Part shown: piece after piece, positions 10,213 through 52,861 of the stretch
How the letters are laid out: each line of letters opens with the position of its first letter
Numbering within the stretch: position 1 is the stretch's first letter
Assembly: GCA_015069485.1 (NCBI GenBank)
Contig: SVIM01000006.1
Location: 1 to 64,000, forward strand
Direction of reading: 5' to 3'
From: Clostridiales bacterium
Lineage (GTDB): Bacteria; Bacillota; Clostridia; Christensenellales; Borkfalkiaceae
DNA length: 64,000 nt
Notes under the pieces: model-generated
The model's database searches: none
What the model was told of the DNA's origin: nothing
The model's input: only the letters and a program-made list of their open reading frames with translations
Position numbers and translations under genes: made by a program

Positions 10213-10560
10213 TTAATTAATTACTCCGCCAACAGGTTTTTTTGTTTTAAAGCTTTCGTTTTTATCTTCTAATTCTTGCTCTTGTTTAAGTGCTTCAATT
10301 TGTGTTTGTTGTTCGGTAATATCTGCTGCAAGCCTTCGTTTTCTTGTTCTAACTCTGCAATTTGCTCTTGCTGGGTTGTAATTTGAGTATATTGTTCGGC
10401 GATATCGGCTTGTAAATCTTGGTTTTGTTCTTGTAGCTCGGCAATTTGCGCTTCAAGTTCAGCGATTTTTGCTTCTAATTCGCCGTTTGTGCAAGCGGAA
10501 AAGCCGACTACACTAAAAAGCATTGTCTCAGATAATATCGCCGTTAATATAAATTTATTT
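10213..10560 (-). pseudogene. Decayed fourth copy of the coiled-coil lipoprotein family
   Basis: Starts without ATG (NKFILTAILSETMLFSVVGFSACTNG versus MKIFTKILTAILSATMLFSV in the paralog). A 1-nt deletion in TTGCA(A)GCAGATATTACC breaks the frame near 10322; after restoration it reads LQADITEQQTQIEALKQEQELEDKNESFKTKKPVGGVIN*, stop at 10213-10215. Confidence 0.75.
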
Positions 10561-11718
10561 TAATTCATTTTCATTATTATCGCCATATAATTCTAAAAAT
10601 TTTATTGATTCAAACTCGGTCTTGTTCATTTTTAAAACAAAGCATCTCTGATACGGCATAGAGGCATCATTTTCCTCTTTTTGTTCTAGTTTAACTTTAA
10701 CAGTTAATACGCTATTTACTACATCAGCTTCAATCAAGTTATATTCCCTTGGACTTACGTCAGAAAAAATATAAAGTATACATATTTCTCTTTCAAAATC
10801 AACAGTTAAGGAATCCTCTTTAAAAATAGAATTAATGTTATCTTCATCTATAATAATAGTTCTTGATTTTGGTGCTTGATTATCTTGAATATATTGTTCT
10901 TCATAATCTGGATTTTCATCATAATTAGGATTTAAATAATACGCCCCACATACTTTATTTTCTTTAAGAAAAGTAGGCATAATCAAATCATTTGCTTTAC
11001 TATACAAAATAGCATTATATTTATTACTTAAACTGTTTGTATATTCAATTTCAGCTTTTTCTAATAAATTTTTAACTTGGTTTTTAGTCACATTTTGATA
11101 CTCTCCGTCAACCATAGGGAATATTGCTGATTTTATAACCGTTGCATTAAACATATTCGACTCAATATAAACCTTTACCAAAGCATAGCCTACGTAGGTT
11201 TCTTCGTATCTTAAAGTAATTTCAACAAAATCGCCGATAATATCATCTTGGCCTTCACTCCAATATATAGTTTCTCCAGAAGATGTTTCTATTTGTTTTA
11301 CGAATTCGTGCCCGTAAATTAAATATCCTTTGTCCGTAGCACACTCAATTACTACGTTTTTATTAGAATTATTTACCGTTATTCTATTACCAAGTGAACT
11401 TACGGCAGGCGACCAACAAGCCAATTCTATCATATCGTCAACATCTTGTTCTATGATATTCTTATTGAGTTGTTCTTTTATAATATATATTTCTTGTTCT
11501 AAATCGGCAATTTGTTCTTGCTGGGTTGTAATTTGAGTTTGTTGTTCTGTGATATCGGCTTGTAAATCTTGGTTTTGCTCTTGTAGCTCGGTAATTTGCG
11601 CTTCAAGTTCAGCGATTTTTGCTTGCAGGTCGCCGTTTGTGCAAGCGGTAAAGCCGACTACACTAAAAAGCATTGCCAAAGATAATACCGCCGTTAAAAT
11701 TTTTGTAAAAATTTTCAT
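10555..11718 (-). CDS. Coiled-coil lipoprotein, paralog C
   Basis: Signal peptide and lipobox-like GFTACTNG followed by AKIAELEAQITELQEQNQDLQADITEQQTQITTQQEQIADLEQ; C-terminal globular domain resembling paralog B. Confidence 0.75.
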   Translation of the reverse strand: MKIFTKILTAVLSLAMLFSVVGFTACTNGDLQAKIAELEAQITELQEQNQDLQADITEQQTQITTQQEQIADLEQEIYIIKEQLNKNIIEQDVDDMIELACWSPAVSSLGNRITVNNSNKNVVIECATDKGYLIYGHEFVKQIETSSGETIYWSEGQDDIIGDFVEITLRYEETYVGYALVKVYIESNMFNATVIKSAIFPMVDGEYQNVTKNQVKNLLEKAEIEYTNSLSNKYNAILYSKANDLIMPTFLKENKVCGAYYLNPNYDENPDYEEQYIQDNQAPKSRTIIIDEDNINSIFKEDSLTVDFEREICILYIFSDVSPREYNLIEADVVNSVLTVKVKLEQKEENDASMPYQRCFVLKMNKTEFESIKFLELYGDNNENELK

Positions 11719-11732
11719 AGTTTCTCCCTTAC
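11509..11732 (-). repeat. Approx. 224-bp near-identical direct repeat, copy 1 (RBS, signal peptide, coiled coil)
   Basis: Aligns without indels to 12391-12614 at a constant offset of 882 nt, including the RBS leader (plus strand catagtttctcccttac). Confidence 0.8.
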
Positions 11733-11838
11733 TTGATTTTAAATTTTAAATATAAATCCTTGTAGCCAACATATTTAATTAGCAAAAACATCAAAATTTT
11801 ATAACTATACGACTAAATACTGTTATTTAATAAAATCC

Positions 11839-12600
11839 TTACCCATAAATCATTGTTATTTTAAAATTTTCAATATCTAAACAATTAAGTTTTACAACAA
11901 AATATCTTAAAATTGGCGAAGACGTTGACGGGGGCATTGCTCCAGAAATATCAGGTTCTGCCATATCATGCAATAAAATTATGCTTAGCTCAGACTCGTA
12001 CGTTTCTATCGTCTTTATATCACAATCAAAGCCTGCATAAATGTCAGTAATAATATATACTGCAAGCATTTCTTCGTCAAAATTTACATTTAACGGCAAT
12101 TGTGTAAAAGCCTTGTCAAAATCTTCTTGATTTTTAATTAAGTAACTAATTTCCTGTGGAAACGATTCATTTGACGTATCCAAATCATCCAAAATTGCTC
12201 CACGCGTAACATTTTCTTTTAAAAAATCTTCTTTAACGTATTGCTGGGCGTCATTTAAAATAACGGCATTATATTTTGCTATGTTATACTGTTCTTCAAT
12301 GCTACTAATTCGATTTTGCAAATCAGCGTTTTTTGAATTTAATTCTTCACTTTCTTGTTCAAGTGCTTCAATTTGCTCTTGCTGTTGTTCAATTTGCTCT
12401 TGCTGGGTTGTAATTTGAGTTTGTTGTTCTGTGATATCGGCTTGTAAATCTTGGTTTTGCTCTTGTAGCTCGGTAATTTGTGCTTCAAGTTCAGCAATTT
12501 TTGCTTCCAATTCGCCGTTTGAGCAGGCGGTAAAGCCAGCAACGCTAAAAAGCATTGTCGCAGATAAAATTGCCGTTAAAATTTTTGTAAAAATTTTCAT
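11839..12600 (-). CDS. Coiled-coil lipoprotein, paralog B
   Basis: Same signal peptide and coiled coil as paralog C; C-terminal domain YNAVILNDAQQYVKEDFLKENVTRGA related to paralog C. Confidence 0.75.
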   Translation of the reverse strand: MKIFTKILTAILSATMLFSVAGFTACSNGELEAKIAELEAQITELQEQNQDLQADITEQQTQITTQQEQIEQQQEQIEALEQESEELNSKNADLQNRISSIEEQYNIAKYNAVILNDAQQYVKEDFLKENVTRGAILDDLDTSNESFPQEISYLIKNQEDFDKAFTQLPLNVNFDEEMLAVYIITDIYAGFDCDIKTIETYESELSIILLHDMAEPDISGAMPPSTSSPILRYFVVKLNCLDIENFKITMIYG

Positions 12601-12614
12601 AGTTTCTCCCTTAC
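12391..12614 (-). repeat. Approx. 224-bp near-identical direct repeat, copy 2
   Basis: See 11509-11732; a third, partly degraded copy is at about 10359-10552. Confidence 0.8.
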
Positions 12615-12622
12615 CTTTTAAA

Positions 12623-13246
12623 TTAACATATAACGTATTCTATTTCCGTTACGTATTCTACTAACGTCTTATCTACTCCCGCTATTAAAAAAACACTATT
12701 TTCTACATCATCTGCCGTATCATTTCTTGGATATTTTATGTATAGCGTCAGTTTACCTAACATTACTTCAACTTCATCAATACGATATTGTCCCGCCCAA
12801 GAATTATTATAAAAGGCACATACCAAAAATGCCTTATCTTCAAAATACTCGTCCGTATATCCACTAATCACCTCGCCAACGACATTACCCAAAAAGTTAT
12901 TACCGTTGTCGAAGAAATCATAACCATTACTTAAACATATTTGCCTAAAATCTTCAATAGAATTACATAATGCAATAAAGTCCGTGCAATTATCTATACC
13001 GCTATACAAGGTTTCTTCTAATATAACTTCACAATTAGAAGATTTTTGATTATTCATTTCTTCAATTTGCAAATTAAGATTCTCTATTTGCTGTTCCAAC
13101 TCTTCAATTTGTTCTTGTTGGGCTGAAATTTGGGCTTCAAGTTCAGCGATTTTTGCTTCCATTTCGCCGTTTGTGCAGGCGGTAAAGCCAACCGCGCTAA
13201 AAAGCATTGTCGCGCTTAATAATAATGTTAAAAATCTTTTTTTCAT
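12623..13246 (-). CDS. Coiled-coil lipoprotein, paralog A (C-terminal domain possibly PrcB-like)
   Basis: MKKRFLTLLLSATMLFSAVGFTACTNGEMEAKIAELEAQIS; C-terminal EYFEDKAFLVCAFYNNSWAGQYRIDEVEVMLGKLTLYIKY is loosely PrcB_C-like. Confidence 0.7.
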   Translation of the reverse strand: MKKRFLTLLLSATMLFSAVGFTACTNGEMEAKIAELEAQISAQQEQIEELEQQIENLNLQIEEMNNQKSSNCEVILEETLYSGIDNCTDFIALCNSIEDFRQICLSNGYDFFDNGNNFLGNVVGEVISGYTDEYFEDKAFLVCAFYNNSWAGQYRIDEVEVMLGKLTLYIKYPRNDTADDVENSVFLIAGVDKTLVEYVTEIEYVIC

Positions 13247-25274: not shown

Positions 25275-26401
25275 TATTTCATTATCTCTTTTCTGTTTTT
25301 TACCGTTTCATTAATAATTTTTACGGCAATTTTAATTTCTTCTTCGCTATTTTCTGGCGAAAAGCTTATTCTAAGCACTCCGTCAAGTAAATTTTCGGCT
25401 ATGCCACAAGCTAAAATAACCCTTGAATAGCGCTTTTTATCGTTAGAAGAGCAAGCCGAGCCCGTGCCGACAATAACGCCTTTATCATTGAGCTCGTGCA
25501 TAATAGTTTCACCTCTAACCCCCTCTACACCCAAGGTTAAAATGTAGGGCGAGGCGTTATTGCCGCTTATTTTAGTAAAGAGCGACGCATCTAACAAAGA
25601 GCAAAATAAGGCGTTAAGCTTACTTACCTTTTCGTAATTATTTGTGATGTTTTGATATTTTTTTATAGCGCAAAGCTCCATAGCCTTTATGCCAAAAACG
25701 TTTTCCGTTCCGCTTCTAAGGCCACCCTCTTGTCCTCCGCCATAAATTAACGGCTTTATAACAAGATTTTTGCGCTTAATAAGCGCACCGCTACCCTTTA
25801 AGGCGTTTATTTTATGTGCGCTTATCGAATACAAATCGATATTTTTATTAAGCCTTGTAGGAATTTTTCCAAAAGCTTGAACCCCGTCAGAGTGAAACAA
25901 GGCTTGCTTGTTTTTTGCCTTTACCGCCGTTGCGATAGCATTAATATCGTTTATTGCGCCCGTTTCGTTATTTACTTGAATAACAGATACTAATGAGGTT
26001 TTTGCATCAATCAAGCTTAATAAATGATTGATATCGACGCTGCCGTCTCTATTTAAATTTGCAAACCTTACTTCTATTCCGCGATTCTTTGCCTCGTTTA
26101 CAGCAGAAAAAATTGCAGAGTGTTCACCTAAAGTAGTTACTATATTACCCCTTTTTCCACCGCAAAAAATTGCGTGATTATCGGCTTCCGTACCGCAGGA
26201 GGTAAAAATAATTTCGTAATTATTTGAATCGGCAATTAAATTTAATAAGTTTTTTCTACTTTCCTTTAATTGGCAATGCAAATTATATCCTTCCGAATAT
26301 AAAGCGGAAGGATTATAATACTGTTCGTATAAATATTTTTCGGCAAGCTTAACACACTCTAAATCGGGTTTAGTCGTTGCCGCATTATCGAGATATATCA
26401 T
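25274..26401 (-). CDS. Cysteine desulfurase (NifS/IscS-like) paired with ThiI
   Basis: IYLDNAATTKP, SAHKINALKGSGAL (PLP Lys), GTGSACSSNDKKRYS (catalytic Cys). Overlaps thiI (ATGA). Confidence 0.93.
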   Translation of the reverse strand: MIYLDNAATTKPDLECVKLAEKYLYEQYYNPSALYSEGYNLHCQLKESRKNLLNLIADSNNYEIIFTSCGTEADNHAIFCGGKRGNIVTTLGEHSAIFSAVNEAKNRGIEVRFANLNRDGSVDINHLLSLIDAKTSLVSVIQVNNETGAINDINAIATAVKAKNKQALFHSDGVQAFGKIPTRLNKNIDLYSISAHKINALKGSGALIKRKNLVIKPLIYGGGQEGGLRSGTENVFGIKAMELCAIKKYQNITNNYEKVSKLNALFCSLLDASLFTKISGNNASPYILTLGVEGVRGETIMHELNDKGVIVGTGSACSSNDKKRYSRVILACGIAENLLDGVLRISFSPENSEEEIKIAVKIINETVKNRKEIMK

Positions 26402-29400
26402 TATATTTCAATTACGCCTTCAAAGGATTGTTTTACCGTTCCGTCAACTTCTACGCTTCCGTCCTCGTTATACTTAACAAACAAGTCGCCACCAGAAAGT
26501 TTTACGGTTATAATCTGGTCGTTAAGGCAACGATTTTTTGCTACAGCCGCAATGGTTGCCGCAGCTGCCGCAGTACCGCAAGCCCAAGTTTCACCTGTGC
26601 CAGGTTCGTAAACGCGTGCCTTTAAAGTGATGTTATTAACTACTCTTACTACTTCTACAAAATAATTTTCGGTAATAGTGCCGTTTTCAATAAAAATTTG
26701 GCTAAGCTCTTCCAAATCTTCATCATCAACCTTATCGCAGAAAATTACGCAATGAGAGTTGCCTACGTGTACTAAGCTAATATCGTATTCTTTGCCGTTT
26801 ACGCATACCGTTTTATTTTCTGCATCTTGAACTTTAGAAACACCTAAGTTGATAGCAACGGAGCTTGCGCAGTTGTTAAACGAGTTTACGGAAAGCGATT
26901 TTACGCCTGCGTTTGTTTCGATAGTAAGCGTATCTCTGTTTATAATTTTATTATCGAAAAGATATTTCGCAACGCATCTTACAGAGTTTGCAGCTATTAC
27001 AATTTCTTTGCCGTTACGGTTAAATACGCGCATTTTAGCATCTGCAACTTCAGATTTTTCCACCATAACAACGCCGTCTGCGCCTATTCCGTAATGTCTG
27101 TCGGAGAAGTTAATTGCAAGTGACTCGGGACAAGTAATCTTATCGTCCATATTATTGAATAAGATATAGTCGTTGCCACAAGATTGCATTTTATTAAAGT
27201 TAAGCTTTAATTTTTCACTTCTAAGAGCATTAATATCTACGAGCTCGGTGTTAAACTGATTATATCTGCCTGCAATAACGTCTGCCAAAGCGTTAGTCGT
27301 ATCGAGAGAAGTTAATACGGTAATACCCAACAAAATTGCATGGTGATGCAAGGAAATATAGTTTGTAATAGATTCAATGTCCGTTTTGCCCGTATAAACT
27401 ACGTAGTCGATTTTGCCTTGATCCATAAGCTTAAAGATTTCGTCGTTGGTGGAAAGACGGGCAACTTCGGTGCATTCTAAGCCTAAGCTTCTAATAACGT
27501 TAGCCGTACCCTTGGTTGCATATAAGGTTAAGCCTAAATCAGCAAACTTTTTAACTATATTTACAATTTCGTACTTATCTTCGTCATTTATGGTAAAGTA
27601 AATGCCGGAAGGATGCTGTTTTGTGGGATGCTTCATATTGAAGCCTGCGGAAACGAGCCCTTTAAACAACGCTTCTTCAATGGTTTTACCAATACCTAAA
27701 ACTTCGCCCGTAGATTTCATTTCAGGGCCTAACTGAGAGTTAACGTCGTTAAGCTTTTCAAACGAGAATACGGGAACTTTTACCGCTACGTAAGGTGAGT
27801 TAGGATATAAGCCCGTGCCGTAGCCAAGCTTTTTAAGCTTTGCGCCCACCATTATTTTGGTTGCAAGCTCTACCATAGGTACGCCCGTTACCTTGGAAAT
27901 ATAAGGAATAGTTCTTGAAGCCCTAGGGTTAACTTCGATAACGTAAAGCTCGTTATGATAGATAAGATATTGAATATTGATTAAGCCCTTAGTCTTTAAG
28001 GAAACTGCAAGTTTAGAAGATATATCAACTACCTTTTTAAGCATAGCGTCGCTTAAATTATAGGGGGGATAAACTGCGATAGAGTCGCCACTATGAACGC
28101 CAGCTCGTTCGATATGTTGCATTATGCCGGGGATTAATACGTCGGTGCCGTCACAAATAGCGTCTACTTCTAACTCCGTACCCATTAAATACTGGTCACA
28201 AAGAACGGGGTTTTCTATTTTTTGCGCCAAAATAACGTCCATATATCTTTCGATATCGTTTTGCGTAAAGGCAATTGTCATATTTTGACCGCCGATTACG
28301 TACGAAGGACGAAGAAGCACGGGATAACCTAAGGTTTGAGCGGCTTTTACCGCTTCTTCCTTGCTCATAACGGTAAGCCCCTTAGGTCTTGCAATATTGA
28401 ATTGTTCTAATAAAGCGTCAAAGCGTTCTCTGTCTTCGGCAAGGTCAACGCTATCTGCGGGAGTACCTAAAATTCTTATACCCTTTTTATCGAGATAGCT
28501 ACAAAGCTTAATTGCAGTTTGTCCGCCAAAGGTGATAACTACGCCGTAAGGCTTTTCGATATCAATAACGTTTTGCACGTCTTCGGGAGTTAACGCTTCA
28601 AAATAAAGTCTGTCTGCCGTATCAAAGTCGGTGGAAACCGTTTCGGGGTTGTTGTTTATAATTACAACCTCGTAACCTAACTTTTTAAGCGCCCAAACGC
28701 AATGTACGGAAGAATAATCGAATTCTATACCCTGACCGATTCTTATAGGACCTGAACCGATAACGATAATTCTTTTCTTTTTGCTATTTTTTACGAAGGG
28801 CTTTGCTTCGTCGTGTTCCTTTTCGTCGTAGGTTGAATAGAAATAAGGCGTTTGCGCTGCATACTCTGCCGCACAGGTATCAACCATTTTGAAGATTGCG
28901 TTTCTGTGCATAGGAACTTTACTGCCGGAAAGCTTTTCAAGCTCCTTATCGGGATAGCCTAAATTCTTACCCTTTAAATATTGAGCGCGAGTTAAGGGCT
29001 TACCTTTAATTTCTTCTTCAAAATCGGAAAGATTTTTAAGCTTAGATAAGAACCACTCGTCAATTTTTGTTATTTCGTAAATTTCTTCAATGGAAACGCC
29101 ACGCTTAATAGCTTCGTAAACGACGAATAATCTTTCGTCGGTAAGCTCGGGAAGCTTTGCTTTAATCTGTTCGAGAGAAAGCTCCTTCATTTTGGGCATA
29201 TTAAGGCTCATAAGCGAAATTTCTGCGCCTCTAACAGCCTTCATAATTGCGCTTTCAAAGCTCGTACCTATTGCCATAACCTCGCCGGTCGCCTTCATAC
29301 GAGAGCCTAAATTACGCTTTGCGTAAAGGAACTTATCGAAGGGCCACTTGGGGAACTTAATTACTACGTAGTCGATAGTAGGTTCAAAGCACGCGTAGGT

Positions 29401-30426
29401 TGAACCGGTTACGTCGTTTTTAATTTCGTCTAAAGCATAGCCTAATGCAATTTTGGTTGTAACCTTTGCAATAGGGAAGCCCGTTGCTTTGGAAGCAAGC
29501 GCGGAAGAACGGGAAACTCTGGGGTTAACTTCGATTACGGCGTATTCGAAGGAGTCGGGATGAAGCGCAAACTGACAGTTACAACCGCCTTCGATACCAA
29601 GCTCTGTAATAATATCTAAAGCAGCCGCTCTTAACATATTAAATTCTTTATCGGATAAAGTAACTGCAGGCGCAATAACGATAGAGTCGCCCGTGTGAAT
29701 ACCTACGGGGTCTAAATTTTCCATAGAGCAAACGGTTAAAACGTTGCCCTTGCTATCACGCAATACTTCAAATTCAATTTCCTTCCATCCGCCAATATAC
29801 TTTTCGATAAGCACCTGCGTGATGGGAGAAAGCAACAAGCCGTTGTGAGCGATTAAGCGAAGCTCTTCTTCATTATACGCTACGCCGCCACCTGCGCCAC
29901 CAAGAGTATATGCAGGGCGAACGATTACGGGGTAGCCACCGATTTTTTCGGCAACGGCAACGCACTCGTCAACGGTGTAAGCGATATCGGAAGGAACGAC
30001 GGGCTGATTAATTTTTTCCATCGTCTGCTTAAAGAGCTCTCTATCTTCTGCTCTATCAATGGAATCTACGTTAACGCCGATTAACTTTACACCCCACTCG
30101 TCCAAAAAGCCTTCTTTTGCAAGCTGACAACCTAAGGTTAAACCGGTTTGTCCGCCCAAGGAAGCCAATAAGCTGTCGGGGCGTTCCTTAATAATAATTC
30201 TTTTTAATGTGTCAACGGTTAAAGGTTCAAGATAAATTTCATCTGCAAGAGCCTTATCCGTCATTATGGTTGCGGGGTTACAGTTGCAAAGAACAACGTT
30301 TACGCCTGCTTCCTTTAAAACGCGACACGCTTGAGTACCCGCATAGTCAAACTCTGCCGCCTGACCAATTACGATAGGGCCGGAACCTATTACGAGTACT
30401 TTTTTAATATCTTCTCTCTTAGGCAT
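26401..30426 (-). CDS. carB: Carbamoyl-phosphate synthase large subunit CarB fused to a C-terminal DapF (diaminopimelate epimerase)-family domain
   Basis: Residues 1 to about 1067 are canonical CarB ([75 protein letters not shown], MGS-like domain). It continues in frame into [19 protein letters not shown]...[14 protein letters not shown]...[26 protein letters not shown]...VGNSHCVIF...[16 protein letters not shown]. Confidence 0.95.
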   Translation of the reverse strand: [1341 protein letters not shown]

Positions 30427-30427
30427 A

Positions 30428-31498
30428 TTATTTAACCTCCTTTATCTCTTTTACGAAGTTATCGTAAAGGATAGTCGTATCACGAGCGTCACAGCATACG
30501 CCGGGATAGAACTGTACGGTTACTGCATTTACGCTTTCGTATTTGCAACCTTCGCAAGAATTATCGTTTACGTTTACGAAGGTTACCTCGCCAACCTTTT
30601 CAATGCTTGAAGAAACTACTTCATAGCCGTGATTTTGCGAGGTTATATAAACCTTACCGGTTGCAATTTCTTTTACGGGTTGATTGCCACCCCTGTGGCC
30701 AACCTTCATTTTTTGAGTTTTACCGCCCATTGCAAGCGCAAAGAGCTGATGGCCTAAACCAATACCGAAAATGGGAAGCTTGCCGCAAAGCTTTTTAATT
30801 TCTTCTACAATTCCGTTATTTTCTGCAGGATTGCCAGGGCCGTCGGAAAGAACAACGCCCTTAACGCCTAAATCTAATATTTCTTCTGCGGTATAGCTTG
30901 CGGGAACTTTAATAACGCACAAATTGCGGGAAACGAGCGCATTTACAACGCTTGCCTTTACGCCAAAGTCCCAAACGGCAACCTTTTCACCTTCGGGATT
31001 ACCCAAATATTCTATTTTTTCACAAGTTACGGCTTTTACGGCGTTTTCGATTTTATAGTTATTTAATAACGATAAATCCTTTAAGGGCTTAGAGGTTATT
31101 GCAGCGTTCATAACGCCGAATTCCCTTATATTCTTAGTTAATTCACGCGTATCAATGCCGTAAATACCGATAATATTGTGCTCCTTAAGATAATCTTCTA
31201 ACTTACCTTCGCATCTGAAATTAGAAGGGCTGTCACATTTTTCCCTAACGATATAAGCGGAAAGCCAGTTTTTATTGCTTTCTGCGTGTTCGGATACAAT
31301 GCCGAAGTTACCAATTGCAGGGAAAGCGTGCGCTACGATTTGTCCAAAGTTGCAAGGGTCGGTAAGCGTTCCAAGATAGCCCGTAATGCCCGTAGTGGTA
31401 AATACAATTTCACCAACCGTATCACCCTTAGCCCCGAAACGGTAACCAACGAAAGTTTTGCCGTTTTGTAACGTCAAATAAACTTTTGCTTTTTCCAT
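30428..31498 (-). CDS. carA: Carbamoyl-phosphate synthase small subunit CarA with apparently inactive glutaminase site
   Basis: CarA N-domain (GEIVFTTTGITGYLGTLTDPCNFGQIV, GIDTRELT) and GAT domain (LSDGPGNP, GHRGGNQPV, ITSQNHGYEV). The nucleophile motif is GIGLGHQ and the His/Glu motif is QFYPG. Confidence 0.94.
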   Translation of the reverse strand: MEKAKVYLTLQNGKTFVGYRFGAKGDTVGEIVFTTTGITGYLGTLTDPCNFGQIVAHAFPAIGNFGIVSEHAESNKNWLSAYIVREKCDSPSNFRCEGKLEDYLKEHNIIGIYGIDTRELTKNIREFGVMNAAITSKPLKDLSLLNNYKIENAVKAVTCEKIEYLGNPEGEKVAVWDFGVKASVVNALVSRNLCVIKVPASYTAEEILDLGVKGVVLSDGPGNPAENNGIVEEIKKLCGKLPIFGIGLGHQLFALAMGGKTQKMKVGHRGGNQPVKEIATGKVYITSQNHGYEVVSSSIEKVGEVTFVNVNDNSCEGCKYESVNAVTVQFYPGVCCDARDTTILYDNFVKEIKEVK

Positions 31499-31519: not shown

Positions 31520-32425
31520 TTAGTTTTTTAAAAGTTTTACAAGTACTGCCTTTTGAGCGTGCAATCTGTTTTCTGCTTCTTCAAAAATTTCGGATGCGTG
31601 TTCTTCAAAAACCTCGTCCGTAATTTCTTCTCCCCTGTGTGCAGGTAAGCAGTGCAATACCATTACGTCGCTTTTTGCAACTGAAAGGTATTGTTTATTA
31701 ACCTGGAAACCGGCAAACGCCTGTTCCCTTTTTTGCTTTTCTCCTTCTTGTCCCATAGAAGCCCAAACGTCGGTATAAACCACGTCCGCATCCTTAACTG
31801 CTTCTTCTACGCAAGAGGTTATAGTAAAATCTCCGTTTTCCTTTGCCCATTTAATAAGCTCTGCATCAGGCTCGTAGCCTTCGGGACAAGCGATCGCAAA
31901 CGACATACCCATTTTTATTGCGCCAACTATTAAGCTGTTAGCCATATTGTTGCCGTCGCCAACGAAAGCCATTTTTAAACCCCTAAAGCTACCCTTAACT
32001 TCTCTAATAGTCATAAGGTCGGCAAGAACCTGGCAAGGATGAGCGTAGTCGGTTAAGCCGTTTATGATGGGAATTGAGCCGTATTTAGCTAAATCTTCCA
32101 CCTCTTGCTGGGCAAAGGTTCTTATCATAATCGCATCAAGATAGCGGGATAAAACCCTTGCCGTATCTTGAACGGGCTCTCCTCTGCCTATCTGCAAATC
32201 GTTGCTCGATAAAAATAAGGGATAACCGCCAAGCTCGTACATACCTACTTCAAACGATACTCTCGTTCTAGTGGACGCCTTTTGGAATATCATACCAAGC
32301 TTTTTGCCCTTTAAATAATCCTTATGTATACCGTTTTTTCTTTCGTATTTAAGTTGATCTGCAAGATTTAAAATAGATAAGATTTCATCCTTAGTTAAAT
32401 CTGATAATTTTAATAAATGCTTCAT
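31520..32425 (-). CDS. argF: Ornithine carbamoyltransferase
   Basis: KASTRTRVSFE, HPCQVLADL, HCLPAHRGEE. Confidence 0.95.
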   Translation of the reverse strand: MKHLLKLSDLTKDEILSILNLADQLKYERKNGIHKDYLKGKKLGMIFQKASTRTRVSFEVGMYELGGYPLFLSSNDLQIGRGEPVQDTARVLSRYLDAIMIRTFAQQEVEDLAKYGSIPIINGLTDYAHPCQVLADLMTIREVKGSFRGLKMAFVGDGNNMANSLIVGAIKMGMSFAIACPEGYEPDAELIKWAKENGDFTITSCVEEAVKDADVVYTDVWASMGQEGEKQKREQAFAGFQVNKQYLSVAKSDVMVLHCLPAHRGEEITDEVFEEHASEIFEEAENRLHAQKAVLVKLLKN

Positions 32426-33588
32426 TGCCCAATAACCTCGTTTAATATTCTAATCGCCACGTCCATTTCGGTTTTATTAATTATTAGCGGTGGCAACAAT
32501 CTTACTTTTTGATGCGCGGTAAGCACGACAAGCCCTCGCTTTAAGCATTGTTCGGCAATCTCTTTAGCGTTTTTATCCGTTTCAATGCCTATCATAAGCC
32601 CCATACCGCTTACGCTTTTTACATTTTTAATTCTTTCTATATGCGCTTTTAAATATGCGCCCTTTCCCTGTACTTCCAGCAAAAGATGATCGTTTAACCT
32701 TTCGATAACGCTTATTGCACCTGCGCAAGCAACTGGATTGCCACCGAAGGTAGAGCCGTGATCACCGTAGGTTAAAGTGTTTTCACATTTTTCAAACATC
32801 ATACACGCGCCTATTGGAAGCCCATTACCTAAGCCCTTTGCGGTAGTTACGATATCAGGGGAAATATCAAAGCCTTGGTATGCATATAAATAGCCCGTTC
32901 TGCCGTTACCTGTTTGAACCTCGTCAATGATAAGTAAAATATCTCTTTCTTTACAGAATTTTTCTACCTGCTTTACGAATTCTTTATCCAAAGCGTTAAC
33001 TCCGCTTTCACCTTGAATAAGCTCCATCATAACGGCACAGGTTTTATCGGTGTATTGCTTCCAAATTCCGTCCATAGTTGCTTCGGCATATTTAAAGCCT
33101 TGCAAAAACGGATTAAAGTGCTTATGAAAGTTAGGTTGCCCCGTTGCAGTCAAGGTTGCCATTGTTCTTCCGTGGAAGGAATTTTTTAAAGTTATTATTT
33201 CGTATCTTTGTTCACCGTAGCGGGAAGAGGAATATTTACGCGCAGTTTTTATAGCGCACTCGTTTGCCTCTGCTCCACTATTTGCAAAAAAAATTTTTTT
33301 TGCGTTCGTTTTTTCGCATAACAGCTTTGCAAGCTCTGCTTGAGGCTTACTGTAATAAAGGTTGCATACGTGTTGGATTTGATTAATTTGGTTTATAACC
33401 GCATTTTTCCAAGCTTCGTCGTTAACGCCGAAAGCGTTTACGCCTATACCAGTGGCGCAATCTATATATTCTTTTCCGTTAATATCTATTAAAGTGCTAC
33501 CTTTGCCACCGACAAACGCTACGCCATAGCGCGCGTATGTATTTGCAATATTACTTTTATCGCACTCAAAAAGGGTATTTTCGTTCAT
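32422..33588 (-). CDS. argD: Acetylornithine aminotransferase
   Basis: FANSGAEANECAIK, FHGRTMATL, DEVQTGNGRTG, TTAKGLGNGLPIGA. The likely start is MNENTLFECD at 33588. Confidence 0.94.
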   Translation of the reverse strand: MNENTLFECDKSNIANTYARYGVAFVGGKGSTLIDINGKEYIDCATGIGVNAFGVNDEAWKNAVINQINQIQHVCNLYYSKPQAELAKLLCEKTNAKKIFFANSGAEANECAIKTARKYSSSRYGEQRYEIITLKNSFHGRTMATLTATGQPNFHKHFNPFLQGFKYAEATMDGIWKQYTDKTCAVMMELIQGESGVNALDKEFVKQVEKFCKERDILLIIDEVQTGNGRTGYLYAYQGFDISPDIVTTAKGLGNGLPIGACMMFEKCENTLTYGDHGSTFGGNPVACAGAISVIERLNDHLLLEVQGKGAYLKAHIERIKNVKSVSGMGLMIGIETDKNAKEIAEQCLKRGLVVLTAHQKVRLLPPLIINKTEMDVAIRILNEVIGQ

Positions 33589-33673
33589 TATTTCTCCTGC
33601 TTGGCGCTTAATAAGCAAATTTTTTTGCAGATTACGCGCATTAAAATAAAGACTGATTTAAAAAATAAACCAG

Positions 33674-34522
33674 TCAATTATAAAACATTGTCCCACTGCC
33701 TTCGTCGGACAATATTTCAATTAAAATAGAATGATATACTCTACCGTCGGTTATAAACACCTTTTTTACCCCACGGCGAATTGCATCCTTACAACATTCA
33801 ATTTTAGGAATCATACCACCAGAAATTATGCCCTGCTTAATAAGGCCGGGGATTTCTGAGATTTGTACTTTTCTAATTAAACTATCCTCGTTAGAGCAAT
33901 CCTCTAACAAGCCCTTAATATCAGACATTAAAATTAAACTTTCAGCGTCTAACCCACCTGCGATTGCAGAAGCTGCAGTATCTGCGTTTACATTATAAAC
34001 GTTACCTTCGTCGTCGTAACCCACGGTGGAAATTACGGGAATATAGCCCATACTTAAAATATCGGAAACGATTTTTACGTCAATGGCAACGATTTTACCA
34101 ACGAAGCCCAAAGCTTCGTCTTGCTTTTCGCATTTTATCATGTGTCCGTCTTGACCGCAAATACCAATAGCCTTACCTTCGTTGCGTTCGATAGAATCGA
34201 CCAAGGATTTATTAACCTTGCCAGCCAAAACCATACGAACAACTTGCGCCGTTTCAGCGTCGGTATAACGAAGTCCGTTTACGAATTTGGTTTGCATGCC
34301 CATTGCTTTAATGGTTTCGGAAATTTCGGGACCGCCACCGTGAACAAGAACAACCTTAATTCCCAAATTTTGTAAAACGACTAAATCACGCATAACTGAC
34401 GATTTAATATTTTCGTCAATCATTGCGTTTCCGCCGTACTTTACTACGAGAATTTTATTAAAATATTTTTTAATGTGAGGCAACGCCTCAACCAAAAATT
34501 TTGCCTGTTTTTGCTTGTCCAT
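33674..34522 (-). CDS. argB: Acetylglutamate kinase
   Basis: VVKYGGNAM, VHGGGPEI, NADTAASAIAGGL. Confidence 0.96.
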   Translation of the reverse strand: MDKQKQAKFLVEALPHIKKYFNKILVVKYGGNAMIDENIKSSVMRDLVVLQNLGIKVVLVHGGGPEISETIKAMGMQTKFVNGLRYTDAETAQVVRMVLAGKVNKSLVDSIERNEGKAIGICGQDGHMIKCEKQDEALGFVGKIVAIDVKIVSDILSMGYIPVISTVGYDDEGNVYNVNADTAASAIAGGLDAESLILMSDIKGLLEDCSNEDSLIRKVQISEIPGLIKQGIISGGMIPKIECCKDAIRRGVKKVFITDGRVYHSILIEILSDEGSGTMFYN

Positions 34523-35736
34523 TAAGTTCTGTAATCTCCGTTTATTTTAACGTAATCGTATGTTAAATCGCAACCCCACGCCGAGGCTTTGCACTTTCCG
34601 ATTTTTAAATTTATATTTACCTGTACTTCGTCTTCACTAAGTACCTTTTTTGCGTGTTCTTCGCTAAATTCTATTCCGTAGCCGTCTTTGCAAACTTCTA
34701 ATACGCCGGCTTTTGACTTAAAGGATACGTCAACCCTTTCTACTTCAACTTCTTCGCCGGAATAGCCTATTGCACATAAAACCCTACCCCAGTTTGCGTC
34801 TGCGCCAAACATAGCCGCCTTGAACAGAGATGATTTTATAACCGTTTTAGCTACGCCCCTTGCCATTTTTACGGACTTTGCGCCAAATACGTTACACTCT
34901 ATAAGCTTAGTTGCGCCTTCGCCGTCCTTTGCAATCATTTTAGAAAGCTTTACCGTACAATAGTTTAACGCCTTGGCAAACGCTTTATAATCTGCGTTTA
35001 CTTCTTCTATAATTTTATTTTGAGCCAAGCCGTTGCAAAGTATTACGCAAGTATCGTTAGTCGATTGGTCACCGTCAACACTTACCATATTAAAGGAGCT
35101 TTTAACGTCGTTAGAAAGCGCCTTTTGAAGCATTTTGGGTGAAATTGCAACGTCAGAGGTTATAAATATAAGATTTGTTGCCATGTTGGGACAAACCATA
35201 CCTACACCCTTTGCAATTGCGCCGATTTTACATTCCCTTCCGCCTAGCGTAAATTTTACCGCTACGCTTTTAGCAATCGTATCCGTGGTCATAATAGCTT
35301 CGGCTGCCGATTTGCTATCGTCGCCTAAAAGTGAATAAAGCTGGTCGATATGCTCTTCCATAGGGGCAATATTTAAAGGTTGACCTATAACGCCCGTAGA
35401 AGCAACTAATACGTCGTTTGCCTTAATTTTGCTAACCCTTTCCACCATTTGGCACATTTTTTCGGCAATTTCAATGCCGTTTTTGTTGCAGGTATTTGCG
35501 TTACCGCTATTGCAAACTATTGCTTGCGCATAACCGCTTTTAAGATGTTCTTTGCATAAAATTACGGGCGCGCCCTTAACTAAATTTTGTGTAAAAACAC
35601 CTGCCGCAGAAGCGTTAACCTCGCTAACTATTAATGCAAAATCCTTTTTAGCTTTATTTTTTCTTATTCCGCAATGCACTCCCGAGGCTTTAAAGCCCTT
35701 GGGGGCGCACACTCCGCCTTGTATTTCTTTTATCAT
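34522..35736 (-). CDS. argJ: Bifunctional glutamate N-acetyltransferase / amino-acid acetyltransferase ArgJ
   Basis: GVGMVCPNMATNLIF processing site, FGADANWGRVLCAIGYSG. Confidence 0.95.
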   Translation of the reverse strand: MIKEIQGGVCAPKGFKASGVHCGIRKNKAKKDFALIVSEVNASAAGVFTQNLVKGAPVILCKEHLKSGYAQAIVCNSGNANTCNKNGIEIAEKMCQMVERVSKIKANDVLVASTGVIGQPLNIAPMEEHIDQLYSLLGDDSKSAAEAIMTTDTIAKSVAVKFTLGGRECKIGAIAKGVGMVCPNMATNLIFITSDVAISPKMLQKALSNDVKSSFNMVSVDGDQSTNDTCVILCNGLAQNKIIEEVNADYKAFAKALNYCTVKLSKMIAKDGEGATKLIECNVFGAKSVKMARGVAKTVIKSSLFKAAMFGADANWGRVLCAIGYSGEEVEVERVDVSFKSKAGVLEVCKDGYGIEFSEEHAKKVLSEDEVQVNINLKIGKCKASAWGCDLTYDYVKINGDYRT

Positions 35737-35750
35737 TTCTTTTTTCCTAT

Positions 35751-36686
35751 TTATATCAAAGAAACCGTTTCGTCTAGCCCAAGCATTATATTCATATTTT
35801 GAACTGCCGCGCCCGAAGCACCCTTTCCTAAATTATCGAATACGGATGCCAAAAAGATTCTATCTTCGTTACCGCTTAAATAAATTTTTAAGTTATTAGT
35901 ACCCGATAGCTCGTTTGCGGGAATAAATGCCGGGGTATCTTCTTCAGTTGCAACTGATATAAAATTACTACCTTGGTAATATTCCGTTAAAAATTTACGC
36001 AAATCCTGTACGGAATATTTTTTGTTTAATAATCTAGTATATAAAGGAACGGTTACGCACATCCCGCAATAAAAATCGCAAATTATGGGATTAAAAATGG
36101 GTTTTTGGCTTAAACCGCACTCGTTTACCATTTCGGGAAGATGCTTGTGATTTAAGGTTATTGCGTACTGTCTGGGCGAAGAAAGGGCAGCTTCCCTATC
36201 TTCTGCCTGATAAACGGCAATCGTTTTTTTGCCTGCGCCCGAATAACCCGTAATTGAGTGCGCTACGAAAGGGTAATCGGCGGGAATAATACCTGCCTTA
36301 ACCAAGGGAGCAACCGTAGAGATAAATCCTGTTGCGTGGCAGCCGGGGTTTGCTACCCTTTTTGCGTTTGCAATTTGTTCCCTTCTTTTACCTGAAAGCT
36401 CGGGAAGGCCGTAAACCCAGTCGCTATTAGTTCTATGCGCGGTGGACGCGTCTATAACCTTTACCTTGTTGTTAACGTCAATTAAAGAAACCGATTCTTT
36501 TGCCGCTTCGTCGGGCAAGCACAAAAAGGCGACGTCTGCAGAATTTAAGCAATCCCTACGCGCGTTTTTATCCTTTCTTAATTCTTCGGGCAAAGTTATT
36601 ATATTAACGTCGCTTCTTTTGCCTAACCTATCAAAAATTTGTAACCCGGTAGTTCCTTCTTTACCATCGATAAATATATTATACAT
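35751..36686 (-). CDS. argC: N-acetyl-gamma-glutamyl-phosphate reductase (type 2)
   Basis: DGKEGTTGLQI, ANPGCHATGFISTVAPL, SITGYSGAGKK. Confidence 0.94.
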   Translation of the reverse strand: MYNIFIDGKEGTTGLQIFDRLGKRSDVNIITLPEELRKDKNARRDCLNSADVAFLCLPDEAAKESVSLIDVNNKVKVIDASTAHRTNSDWVYGLPELSGKRREQIANAKRVANPGCHATGFISTVAPLVKAGIIPADYPFVAHSITGYSGAGKKTIAVYQAEDREAALSSPRQYAITLNHKHLPEMVNECGLSQKPIFNPIICDFYCGMCVTVPLYTRLLNKKYSVQDLRKFLTEYYQGSNFISVATEEDTPAFIPANELSGTNNLKIYLSGNEDRIFLASVFDNLGKGASGAAVQNMNIMLGLDETVSLI

Positions 36687-37906
36687 TATTTAAGTTTTTT
36701 GCTATCGAGCAACGCTTTAACCTTGATGGGTAAACCGAAAAGGTTGATAAAGCCCTGTGAATCCATTTGGTCGTAGCAATCGTCTTCGCCAAAGGTTGCG
36801 ATATCTTCGCTATATAAGGAATAGGGCGAAGTAATGCCTGCGGGAATAATATTACCCTTGTAAATTTTAAGCTTAACGTCACCGGTTACCGTTTGCTGAG
36901 TTTTTTCAACGAAGGCGTCTAACGCTTCCCTTAAAGGAGTAAACCATTGACCGTCGTAAACGATTTCACCGTACTTAATTGCAATAATTTGCTTGTAGTG
37001 CTGGGTAGCCTTGTCAAGACAAATAGATTCTAAAAGCTCGTGCGCGGTGTATAAAATAGTACCGCCGGGGGTTTCGTATACGCCCCTAGACTTCATACCA
37101 ACAAGGCGGTTTTCTACCATATCGATAAGTCCTACACCGTTTTCTCCGCCGATTTTATTAAGCTTTTCAATTAAAGCAACGCTTTCTAATTCTTCTCCGT
37201 CGATTGCGGTGGGCACACCCTTTTCAAAATGAATAGTTAAGTAGGTTGCCTTATCGGGAGCGTTCCAAGGGGAAACGCCAAGTTCCAAAATTTTGTCGTA
37301 ATTAGGTTCGTTTGCAGGGTCTTCCAAATCTAAACCTTCGTGAGATAAGTGCCAAAGGTTTTTATCTTTGGAATAGTTGGTTTCTCTGCTAATTTTTAAG
37401 GGAATATTGTGCTTTTCAGCGTATTCAATTTCGTCGTCACGGCTTTTAAATTCCCAAATTCTCCAAGGTGCGATAATTTTCATTTCAGGCGCAAAAGCCT
37501 TGATGGAAAGTTCAAATCTAACTTGGTCGTTGCCCTTACCGGTACAGCCGTGGCAAATTGCGTCTGCGCCTTCAGCCTTTGCAATTTCTACTATTCTTTT
37601 TGCAATAACAGGTCTTGCAAAAGAAGTACCTAAAAGGTATTTATTTTCGTAAACTGCGCCCGCCTTCATAGTGGGGTAAATATAGTCTTCAATAAATTCC
37701 TTTTTTAAGTCTTCGATATAAAGTTTTGATGCGCCAGTTTTTAACGCCTTTTCTTCCAAGCCTTCAAGTTCAGTAGTTTGACCTACGTCGCCAGAAACGG
37801 CAATAACTTCGCAGTTATCGTAATTTTCCTTAAGCCAAGGAATAATAATTGAAGTATCTAACCCGCCAGAATAAGCAAGCACTACTTTTTTAATTTTCTT
37901 TTCCAT
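36686..37906 (-). CDS. argG: Argininosuccinate synthase
   Basis: [36 protein letters not shown]. Confidence 0.97.
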
Positions 37907-50950: not shown

Positions 50951-52861
50951 TTATTTATTTTCAATATCTTGTAACCAAATGGTTGAAAGGGCGTCGGAGG
51001 GCATTTTCCAATCACCCCTAGGTGAAAGAGCAACAGAGCCTACCTTTATTCCATCCGGTACGCAAGAGCGTTTAAATTGCTGGGCAAAAAAGCGCTTATA
51101 AAAGATTTTTAACCACTTTTCAATTTCTTCGGGTGAAAAATCGTCTTTAAAGGTTCTTTCCGCTATAAATTTAATTTTTGAAGGTGTAAAGCCGTAGCGA
51201 ATTGCGTAATATAAAAAGAAATCGTGCAATACGTAAGGGCCAACTAAATCTTCCGTTTTTTGCGAAATTTCGCCACTCTTTTCAGGGGGCAAAAGCTCGG
51301 GGCTTATTTCCGTACCTAAAATATCGTTTAAAACCCCTTCTGCTTCTCCGCCTAAGTTTTGTGCTTCGTGCTTTACTAAATGCTTTACAAGTGTTTTAGG
51401 CACGGAACAGTTTACGCCGTACATAGACATATGGTCGCCGTTATAGGTTGACCAGCCTAACGCGCTTTCTGATAAATCACCCGTACCGATAACCAAGCCA
51501 CCCGTTTTATTTGCTATATCCATTAAAAGCATAGTGCGGTATCTTGCCTGAGCGTTTTCGTAAGTCACGTCCAAAATATCAGGGTCGTGACCGATATCCT
51601 TAAAGTGCTGTAAAACCCCGTCAACTATACTTATTTCCTTTAGCTCTGCGCCAAAATACTTTATAAGTTTTTTAGAATTGTTAAGCGTTTTTTTAGTAGT
51701 GCCAAAGCCGGGCATTGTTACTGCAATTATGTTTTTCGTATCCCTATTTAACGCCTTAAAAGCCCTTACGACCACTAAAAACGCTAACGACGAATCAAGC
51801 CCGCCGGATATACCGATAACGGCGGTTTTTGCGCCCGTATGCTTTAATCTTTTTTCTAACCCTTTTGCTTGTATATTAAGTATTAATTCCGCTCGTTCCG
51901 CAAGGGTATTATTCGGCACGAACGGAAGCTTTGGGAAATGGCGTTCGAGCTTTGAAGACGAATCGTTTGTAACGAAAGGTACGATAGTATATTCGATTGA
52001 ACGGGATTCGTAGTAAAAAGTTGAAGCCTTTTTAACCCTTTCGGCGTTAAGCTTTTCAACGTCGATTTCAGCAAACAATAAGCCGTTTTTAAAAATGGGC
52101 TTTTCGGCTAAAATTTCGCCGTTTTCGCATATAATATTATGTCCGCCAAAAACCATATCGGTACTGCTTTCGCCGTCGCCTGCATTAGAATAAATATAGC
52201 CGCACAAAAGCTTTGCAGACTGTACCTTTACTAAATTTTTTCTATGCTCTTGCTTTGCAACGAGCTCGCTACTGCAAGAAAGGTTTACTATGATATTTGC
52301 GCCTGCCGTTGCGTGAGATACTGAAGGAGATAAAGGCGCCCACAAATCTTCGCAAATTTCGGCGGCAACGGCAAAATTCTTGTTAGTTTTAGCTTCAAAA
52401 ATAATATCCATGCCAAAGGGCACTTCAAAGCCTGCGTAGGTTATAGTTTTTACGCCCTTTTGCGCAGGGGAGAAATTTCTTGCTTCGTAAAACTCGTTAT
52501 AATTAGGCAAAAACTTTTTAGGAATAACGCCCAAAACCTTACCGCAGTTTATTGCTACGGCACAGTTATAAAGCCTACCCGATTGAAATACCGGTACGCC
52601 TATGAAAATTAGCGAAGTAAGATTTTTCGTTTGCTCGCAAATTTGAGCAACGGCCTCTTCGCAGGATTTTATTAACAACGGTTGGTTGAACAAATCGCCA
52701 CAAGTGTAGCCACTTACGCAAAGCTCGGGGAAAACGGTAAGCTGACTTCCGCCTTCCTCTGCCTTAAATGCGTCAGCTATTATGTTTTGAGTATTAAATT
52801 TTACATCGGCAACCTTAACGTCGGGCGTTGCCGCGCAAGCTTTTACAAATCCGTACTGCAT
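50951..52861 (-). CDS. nadE: Glutamine-dependent NAD+ synthetase
   Basis: Nitrilase domain AAEICEDLWAP; synthetase GISGGLDSSLAFLV, GTGDLSESALGWSTYNGDHMSMYGVN. Confidence 0.95.
   Translation of the reverse strand: MQYGFVKACAATPDVKVADVKFNTQNIIADAFKAEEGGSQLTVFPELCVSGYTCGDLFNQPLLIKSCEEAVAQICEQTKNLTSLIFIGVPVFQSGRLYNCAVAINCGKVLGVIPKKFLPNYNEFYEARNFSPAQKGVKTITYAGFEVPFGMDIIFEAKTNKNFAVAAEICEDLWAPLSPSVSHATAGANIIVNLSCSSELVAKQEHRKNLVKVQSAKLLCGYIYSNAGDGESSTDMVFGGHNIICENGEILAEKPIFKNGLLFAEIDVEKLNAERVKKASTFYYESRSIEYTIVPFVTNDSSSKLERHFPKLPFVPNNTLAERAELILNIQAKGLEKRLKHTGAKTAVIGISGGLDSSLAFLVVVRAFKALNRDTKNIIAVTMPGFGTTKKTLNNSKKLIKYFGAELKEISIVDGVLQHFKDIGHDPDILDVTYENAQARYRTMLLMDIANKTGGLVIGTGDLSESALGWSTYNGDHMSMYGVNCSVPKTLVKHLVKHEAQNLGGEAEGVLNDILGTEISPELLPPEKSGEISQKTEDLVGPYVLHDFFLYYAIRYGFTPSKIKFIAERTFKDDFSPEEIEKWLKIFYKRFFAQQFKRSCVPDGIKVGSVALSPRGDWKMPSDALSTIWLQDIENK

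Follow-up and report, generated by a model that had tools for sequence, protein, structure and literature searches.

In the bacterial order represented by the window (the whole 64,000-nucleotide stretch of clostridial DNA analyzed), sequence comparison indicates that the nucleophile of CarA, the small subunit of carbamoyl-phosphate synthase (CPSase), was lost at least ten separate times, with live sisters beside several of the losses. Here, a CarA is called dead when at least one residue of the glutaminase triad is missing and live when the triad is intact. This recurrence of triad loss across the order is the main point of the analysis and was absent from the original prediction. For the carA gene of the window, in which all three residues are replaced, the preferred reading, to which a probability of about 0.77 is given, is a CarAB that would use bicarbonate, two ATP and free ammonia to form carbamoyl phosphate without glutamine hydrolysis.

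The carA gene of the window and its operon

The window carA is an open frame from ATG to TAA with no internal stops. Its motifs read GIGLGHQ and QFYPG, with Gly, Tyr and Gly in place of the Cys-His-Glu triad. Each codon coordinate given for these replacements in the original prediction was exact, and the alignment to E. coli CarA that it had recommended identified the altered codons as Cys269, His353 and Glu355. The coordinates of the gene, the altered codons and the neighboring genes are collected in Table 1.

Table 1. Positions in the window of the carA gene, its altered codons and other genes.
Feature	Position	Strand	Remarks
carA, carbamoyl-phosphate synthase small subunit without glutaminase triad	30428-31498	(-)	356 aa
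codon 247 GGT, Gly replacing nucleophile Cys269 (E. coli number)	30758-30760	(-)	alignment
codon 331 TAT, Tyr replacing catalytic His353 (E. coli number)	30506-30508	(-)	alignment
codon 333 GGC, Gly replacing catalytic Glu355 (E. coli number)	30500-30502	(-)	alignment
codon 49 TGC, Cys replacing Ser47	31352-31354	(-)	Ser in 198/199 live relatives
codons 337-338, Asp-Ala replacing Gly359-Pro360	30485-30490	(-)	pair near-invariant in live relatives
codons 219-223, DGPGN replacing NGPGD	30830-30844	(-)	Asp for Asn240, Asn for Asp244
carB with fused C-terminal DapF-like domain	26401-30426	(-)	1341 aa; synthase part normal
argF, ornithine carbamoyltransferase	31520-32425	(-)	TIGR00658 438.5 bits; directly upstream of carA
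argD, acetylornithine aminotransferase	32422-33618	(-)	TIGR00707 above cut-off
argB	33674-34522	(-)	named from reading translation
argJ	34522-35736	(-)	named from reading translation
argC	35751-36686	(-)	named from reading translation
argG	36686-37906	(-)	named from reading translation
nadE, glutamine-dependent NAD synthetase	50951-52861	(-)	nitrilase-type glutaminase residues apparently intact, by eye
three adjoining lipoprotein-like genes	10555-13246	(-)	starts near-identical (MKIFTKILTAVLSLAMLFSVVGFTACTNG...); coiled-coil-like repeats

Both CarA domains were recognized by Pfam, PF00988 (1.6e-42) followed by PF00117 (8.4e-36), each far above the cut-off. The protein also scored 363.5 bits against TIGR01368, the model of glutamine-hydrolyzing CPSase (cut-off 307.35), so annotation pipelines will label it as glutamine-hydrolyzing. 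The top PDB match of its AlphaFold model (pLDDT 84.5) was the C269S mutant of E. coli CarA (1c30_B, TM 0.85), and human CPS1 came next after E. coli CarA. The pocket residues G241, G243, L270, Q273, N311, H312 and Y314 are still conserved.

The genome of the window (G000) has a size of 1.52 Mb and is 97% complete with low contamination, the contig being 65 kb long. It was searched for a second canonical carA, as had been suggested at the outset, and no second CarA was found. The class I amidotransferases detected in G000 above the cut-off were CarA and HisH, with a MetA-like protein below it. A viral or mobile-copy origin of the window carA was considered and rejected, as there was no viral contig match and all plasmid matches were below 60% identity.

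carB lies one base downstream of the window carA, and the order carA then carB, directly adjacent, was found in 15 of 15 dead loci. With argF adjoining and a PyrB-like protein encoded elsewhere in the genome (G000:C6, named by eye), one CarAB must supply both arginine and pyrimidines.

Some features of the neighboring genes were recorded in their own right. The DapF-like domain occupies residues 1073-1341 of the window CarB, and the fusion is present in all family relatives whose sequence was followed to its end. All fused copies read have another sequence in place of the first catalytic Cys motif (CGNG.RC), which is IAANSVRC in the window domain, but keep the second Cys. Several relatives have a separate normal DapF; in G000, no DapF match was found besides the CarB fusion. 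In addition to argF and pyrB, G000 encodes a third, OTC-like carbamoyltransferase (L106:1456-2394, G000:C9), which relatives have too and which reached the cut-off of none of the NCBIfam carbamoyltransferase models listed.

Recurrent loss of the triad across the order

The tree was built from 226 CarA sequences (225 from the same order plus E. coli), leaving out the triad columns. At least one triad residue was missing from 26 of the 226 and the nucleophile from 23, prevalence figures that are biased since the search that brought up the dead copies L119, L133 and L139 was aimed at the lesion itself. Because E. coli and 199 relatives carry the triad, the changes are losses, and with the triad complete in these 199 of the 225 compared relatives, the altered triad is not noise at a variable site. 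The tree requires at least 12 changes for any triad residue and at least 11 for the nucleophile, forced by branches with SH-aLRT of at least 95; a smaller tree that included few live outgroups needed only 3 changes because the sisters had been left out. The nucleophile was replaced by Gly in 16 of the 26 dead copies and by Ser in 6. The nucleophile elbow is strained and Gly tolerates this backbone shape, so the frequent change from Cys to Gly likely reflects the fit of Gly to the elbow once the Cys is no longer needed.

The dead clade to which the window belongs is sampled in two genomes, G000 and G010, and genus g3 contains an all-dead clade of eight species. Single dead species stand beside live sisters in G114 (GHA), G118 (DHE), G141 (GYD), G541 (GYE), G123 (SYD) and G259 (GQE), and more distant dead CarA are found in G561 and G306. 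A clade of five relatives in genus g80 shows the Cys to Ser change of human CPS1 while His and Glu are unaltered.

An AU test on CarA with 12 dead rows rejected the hypothesis that the dead CarA of the window's family all share one origin (p-AU 0.0018). Grouping of G000/G010 with the g3 dead clade was not rejected on CarA, where both branches are long (p-AU 0.54), but one origin for the two was rejected on CarB (p-AU 0.027), and they were counted as separate losses. The CarB tree places G000/G010 inside the live genus g1 and the g3 dead clade beside the live G149, with the proviso that single placements can be wrong since dead copies evolve fast.

The nearest CarA to that of the window (69% identity) comes from G010, a separate genome of the same genus, and contains GIGLGHQ and QFYPT. 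The remaining 73 CarA of the genus in the tree have an intact triad; therefore, the loss is confined to the small G000/G010 clade. As to whether close relatives share Gly, Tyr and Gly, the question asked in the original prediction, G010 has Gly, Tyr and Thr, and most relatives have the intact triad. Intact motifs in a related genome had been named there as grounds for doubting the replacements. Most relatives do have them, yet an error is not supported, because with the same loss in G010 they mean a recent loss instead. The probability of a sequencing, assembly or binning error is negligible: the relatives appear to be metagenome assemblies, which would leave room for it, but G010 has two of the three identical replacements plus a third of its own, independent losses occur in other genera, and the length and low contamination of the contig also speak against it. 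For practical purposes, this explanation is refuted.

Milder triad lesions were seen elsewhere in the order, at L311, L320 and L353 and at L338, L344, L348, L356 and L357; they consist of His changed to Arg or to Tyr and of a clade of five species with the Cys to Ser change of human CPS1. Some genomes with milder triad lesions have a second CarA match. G167, G196 and G541 carry a dead and an intact CarA, the intact copy of G196 adjoining PyrG; contamination, transfer or division of labor may account for such pairs. No report of a natural bacterial CarA without the triad was found in the literature searched, which covered a minority of the subscription papers.

Selection, accompanying changes and nucleotide synthesis genes

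The original prediction of a retained structural subunit instead of a pseudogene is supported by the loss in the sister species, the purifying selection, the intact operon, the normal CarB and the lack of a second carA in the genome. Between G000 and G010, carA has a dN/dS of about 0.17 (pN/pS 0.33) compared with 0.04-0.10 in live pairs, about two to four times higher, although these values are rough because synonymous sites are near saturation. Neither a broken frame nor a neutral rate, as expected of a pseudogene, was found for the window carA. CarA identity to the outgroup G102 was 57% for G000/G010 vs 69-72% for live siblings, while for the N half of CarB it was 81-88% vs 80-83%. In addition, the two ATP-grasp halves of the window CarB are 89-95% identical to those of live relatives. 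Selection on CarA is relaxed yet still strong, with no relaxation on CarB, the fast evolution being in CarA alone.

Positions fixed in live CarA are still conserved in dead copies at 93% in the N domain and 80% in the glutaminase domain, and 3 of 30 and 17 of 53 of them, respectively, have become loose. The loose positions include S47, K202, N240, G267, I268, C269, A309, H353, E355, G359, P360 and D362; S47, N240, I268, C269, A309, H353, G359 and P360 are among those most often lost. Besides the triad, S47, N240, G359 and P360 are replaced in G000. The altered residues of dead CarA cluster around the glutamine pocket and at the G359/P360 loop. G359 of E. coli is the residue mutated in PDB 1m6v (G359F), a mutant that reportedly leaks ammonia. 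Changes were also found in CarB. At its residue 263 (E. coli Gln262), 68 of 69 live genomes have Gln, whereas the window has Asn and 10 of the 12 readable dead genomes carry one of Asn, Ser, Thr and Glu; 9 of these 12 also differ at residue 259 (E. coli Asp258).

Both a GuaA-type and a PyrG-type amidotransferase were present in all live genomes examined (36/36). Of 15 genomes in which no CarA other than a dead one was found, 12 have neither, one is without PyrG, one is without GuaA and one has both; the raw comparison (12/15 vs 0/36) overstates the link, since it ignores relatedness. The types were judged by match length and frame length, and PyrG typing was confirmed by a synthase domain that is present in four live genomes and absent from G000 and G010. 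CTP synthetase (PF06418) was not found in G000 and G010, and neither was the amidotransferase domain of GMP synthetase, unlike in live-CarA relatives; uptake may be the source of CTP and GMP for these two. Among independent pairs, dead CarA and missing gene agreed in 3/3 for PyrG and 2/3 for GuaA, numbers too small to reach significance. The association of dead CarA with the loss of GuaA and PyrG is therefore a lead, not a result. A general loss of glutamine use was rejected, since HisH and NadE keep their glutaminase residues, and HisH was intact in all dead-CarA genomes in which it was read (6/6).

These absences would also fit a relaxed decay, in which carbamoyl phosphate is hardly needed owing to nucleotide or arginine uptake and carA is being lost, the triad first. 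The 12 of 15 dead-CarA genomes with neither amidotransferase, compared with none of the 36 live ones, and the missing PyrG synthase domain of G000 and G010, a hint of nucleotide uptake, point in this direction, as do the faster evolution of CarA in dead lineages and several relatives that show neither carA nor carB. However, decay is unlikely in view of the dN/dS of carA and of the open frames of all 26 dead copies analyzed. carB stays adjacent with an unchanged rate, the arg operon genes and pyrB are present, and the all-dead clade of eight species has persisted through several splits.

Ammonia dependence and known carbamoyl-phosphate synthases

Cys269 and His353 are both essential in E. coli CarA (PMC6245113). 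Judged from this enzymology, glutaminase activity would be absent from the window CarA. The synthase subunit of CPSases accepts ammonia, and it is from these two points, no glutamine hydrolysis without the Cys and the His yet a synthase that can use ammonia, that an ammonia-dependent CPSase is read. The same proposal had been made in the original prediction and is backed by the sequence evidence, while ammonia dependence itself is what we infer. Ammonia may reach CarB by way of the former CarA tunnel, which the altered G359/P360 loop perhaps opens, or alternatively by the side path proposed for CPS1. CarA would be kept as a partner of CarB, for stability, shielding of intermediates or regulation, and the carbamoyl phosphate formed would feed both the argF of this operon and the pyrB at another place in the genome. 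The E. coli enzyme needs very high ammonia, a reaction deemed likely physiologically irrelevant (PMC6245113); hence, either the low affinity is overcome here or the niche is ammonia-rich. The simplest selective idea would be an ammonia-rich niche, where spending ATP on glutamine first may bring nothing.

Since the cell still uses glutamine, with HisH intact (GICLGMQ and QFHPE) and NadE apparently so, a separate glutaminase or another amidotransferase subunit might feed ammonia to CarB in trans, which would leave the synthesis glutamine-driven. This is very unlikely, because in G000 no class I amidotransferase was found beyond CarA, HisH and the MetA-like protein below the cut-off, HisH adjoins HisA- and HisF-like genes, and carB is still accompanied by the gene of the CarA that a substitute would need to displace. 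It is highly improbable, too, that dead CarA has a regulatory or sensing role, for instance binding glutamine uncleaved and gating CarB: the modeled fold and the conserved pocket residues listed above would be compatible with binding, but the changes at Ser47, Asn240, Gly359 and Pro360 in G000 are unlike selection for keeping glutamine bound.

The ammonia-dependent reading has a proven counterpart in human CPS1, in which the catalytic Cys is replaced by Ser294 (PMC4655335). As in CPS I, the glutaminase Cys is lost and the synthase is intact in the window CarAB. The likeness to vertebrate CPS1 extends to the glutaminase-like domain that is kept without the Cys, the intact synthase halves and the service to arginine/ornithine chemistry (PMC4655335). 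Vertebrate CPS1, however, is one fused polypeptide that needs N-acetylglutamate and has its old tunnel blocked by Gln318 (PMC4655335), whereas the window has separate CarA and CarB and has lost all three residues, and a CPS1-like block at G293 was not seen in its CarA, which retains Gly. The window CarA nests among bacterial CarA; the losses in the order are independent of that in vertebrate CPS1. A carbamate-kinase-like CPS of Pyrococcus also makes carbamoyl phosphate without a glutaminase (PMC6022934), but its fold is unrelated, with no CarA or CarB, unlike the window system.

Compared with E. coli CarAB, the window pair has the same two subunits, domains and operon order, and its CarB matches E. 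coli CarB over nearly the whole length, whereas in CarA Cys269, His353, Glu355, Ser47, Gly359 and Pro360 are replaced. The E. coli laboratory mutants C269S (1c30, 1c3o) and G359F (1m6v) concern positions that are naturally replaced here, Cys269 by Gly and Gly359 by Asp; unlike in those site mutants, the window replacements arose in nature, occur together in a single protein and have stayed fixed across speciation. Both mutants are said to keep ammonia-dependent synthesis.

For the order as a whole, the chances are even that CPSase was repeatedly converted to an obligate ammonia-dependent form, with a non-catalytic CarA and matching changes in CarB, as part of a broader retreat from glutamine use in making nucleotides through the loss of GMP and CTP synthetases. 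In a recent review, the use of glutamine as donor in E. coli is extended to every bacterial CPSase (PMC6245113). Why a dead glutaminase subunit is retained has so far been asked mainly of vertebrate CPS1, and the natural series of at least ten losses makes the question testable in bacterial two-subunit CPSases. The link to missing GMP and CTP synthetases, as a lead, bears on the nitrogen and nucleotide supply of uncultured clostridia.
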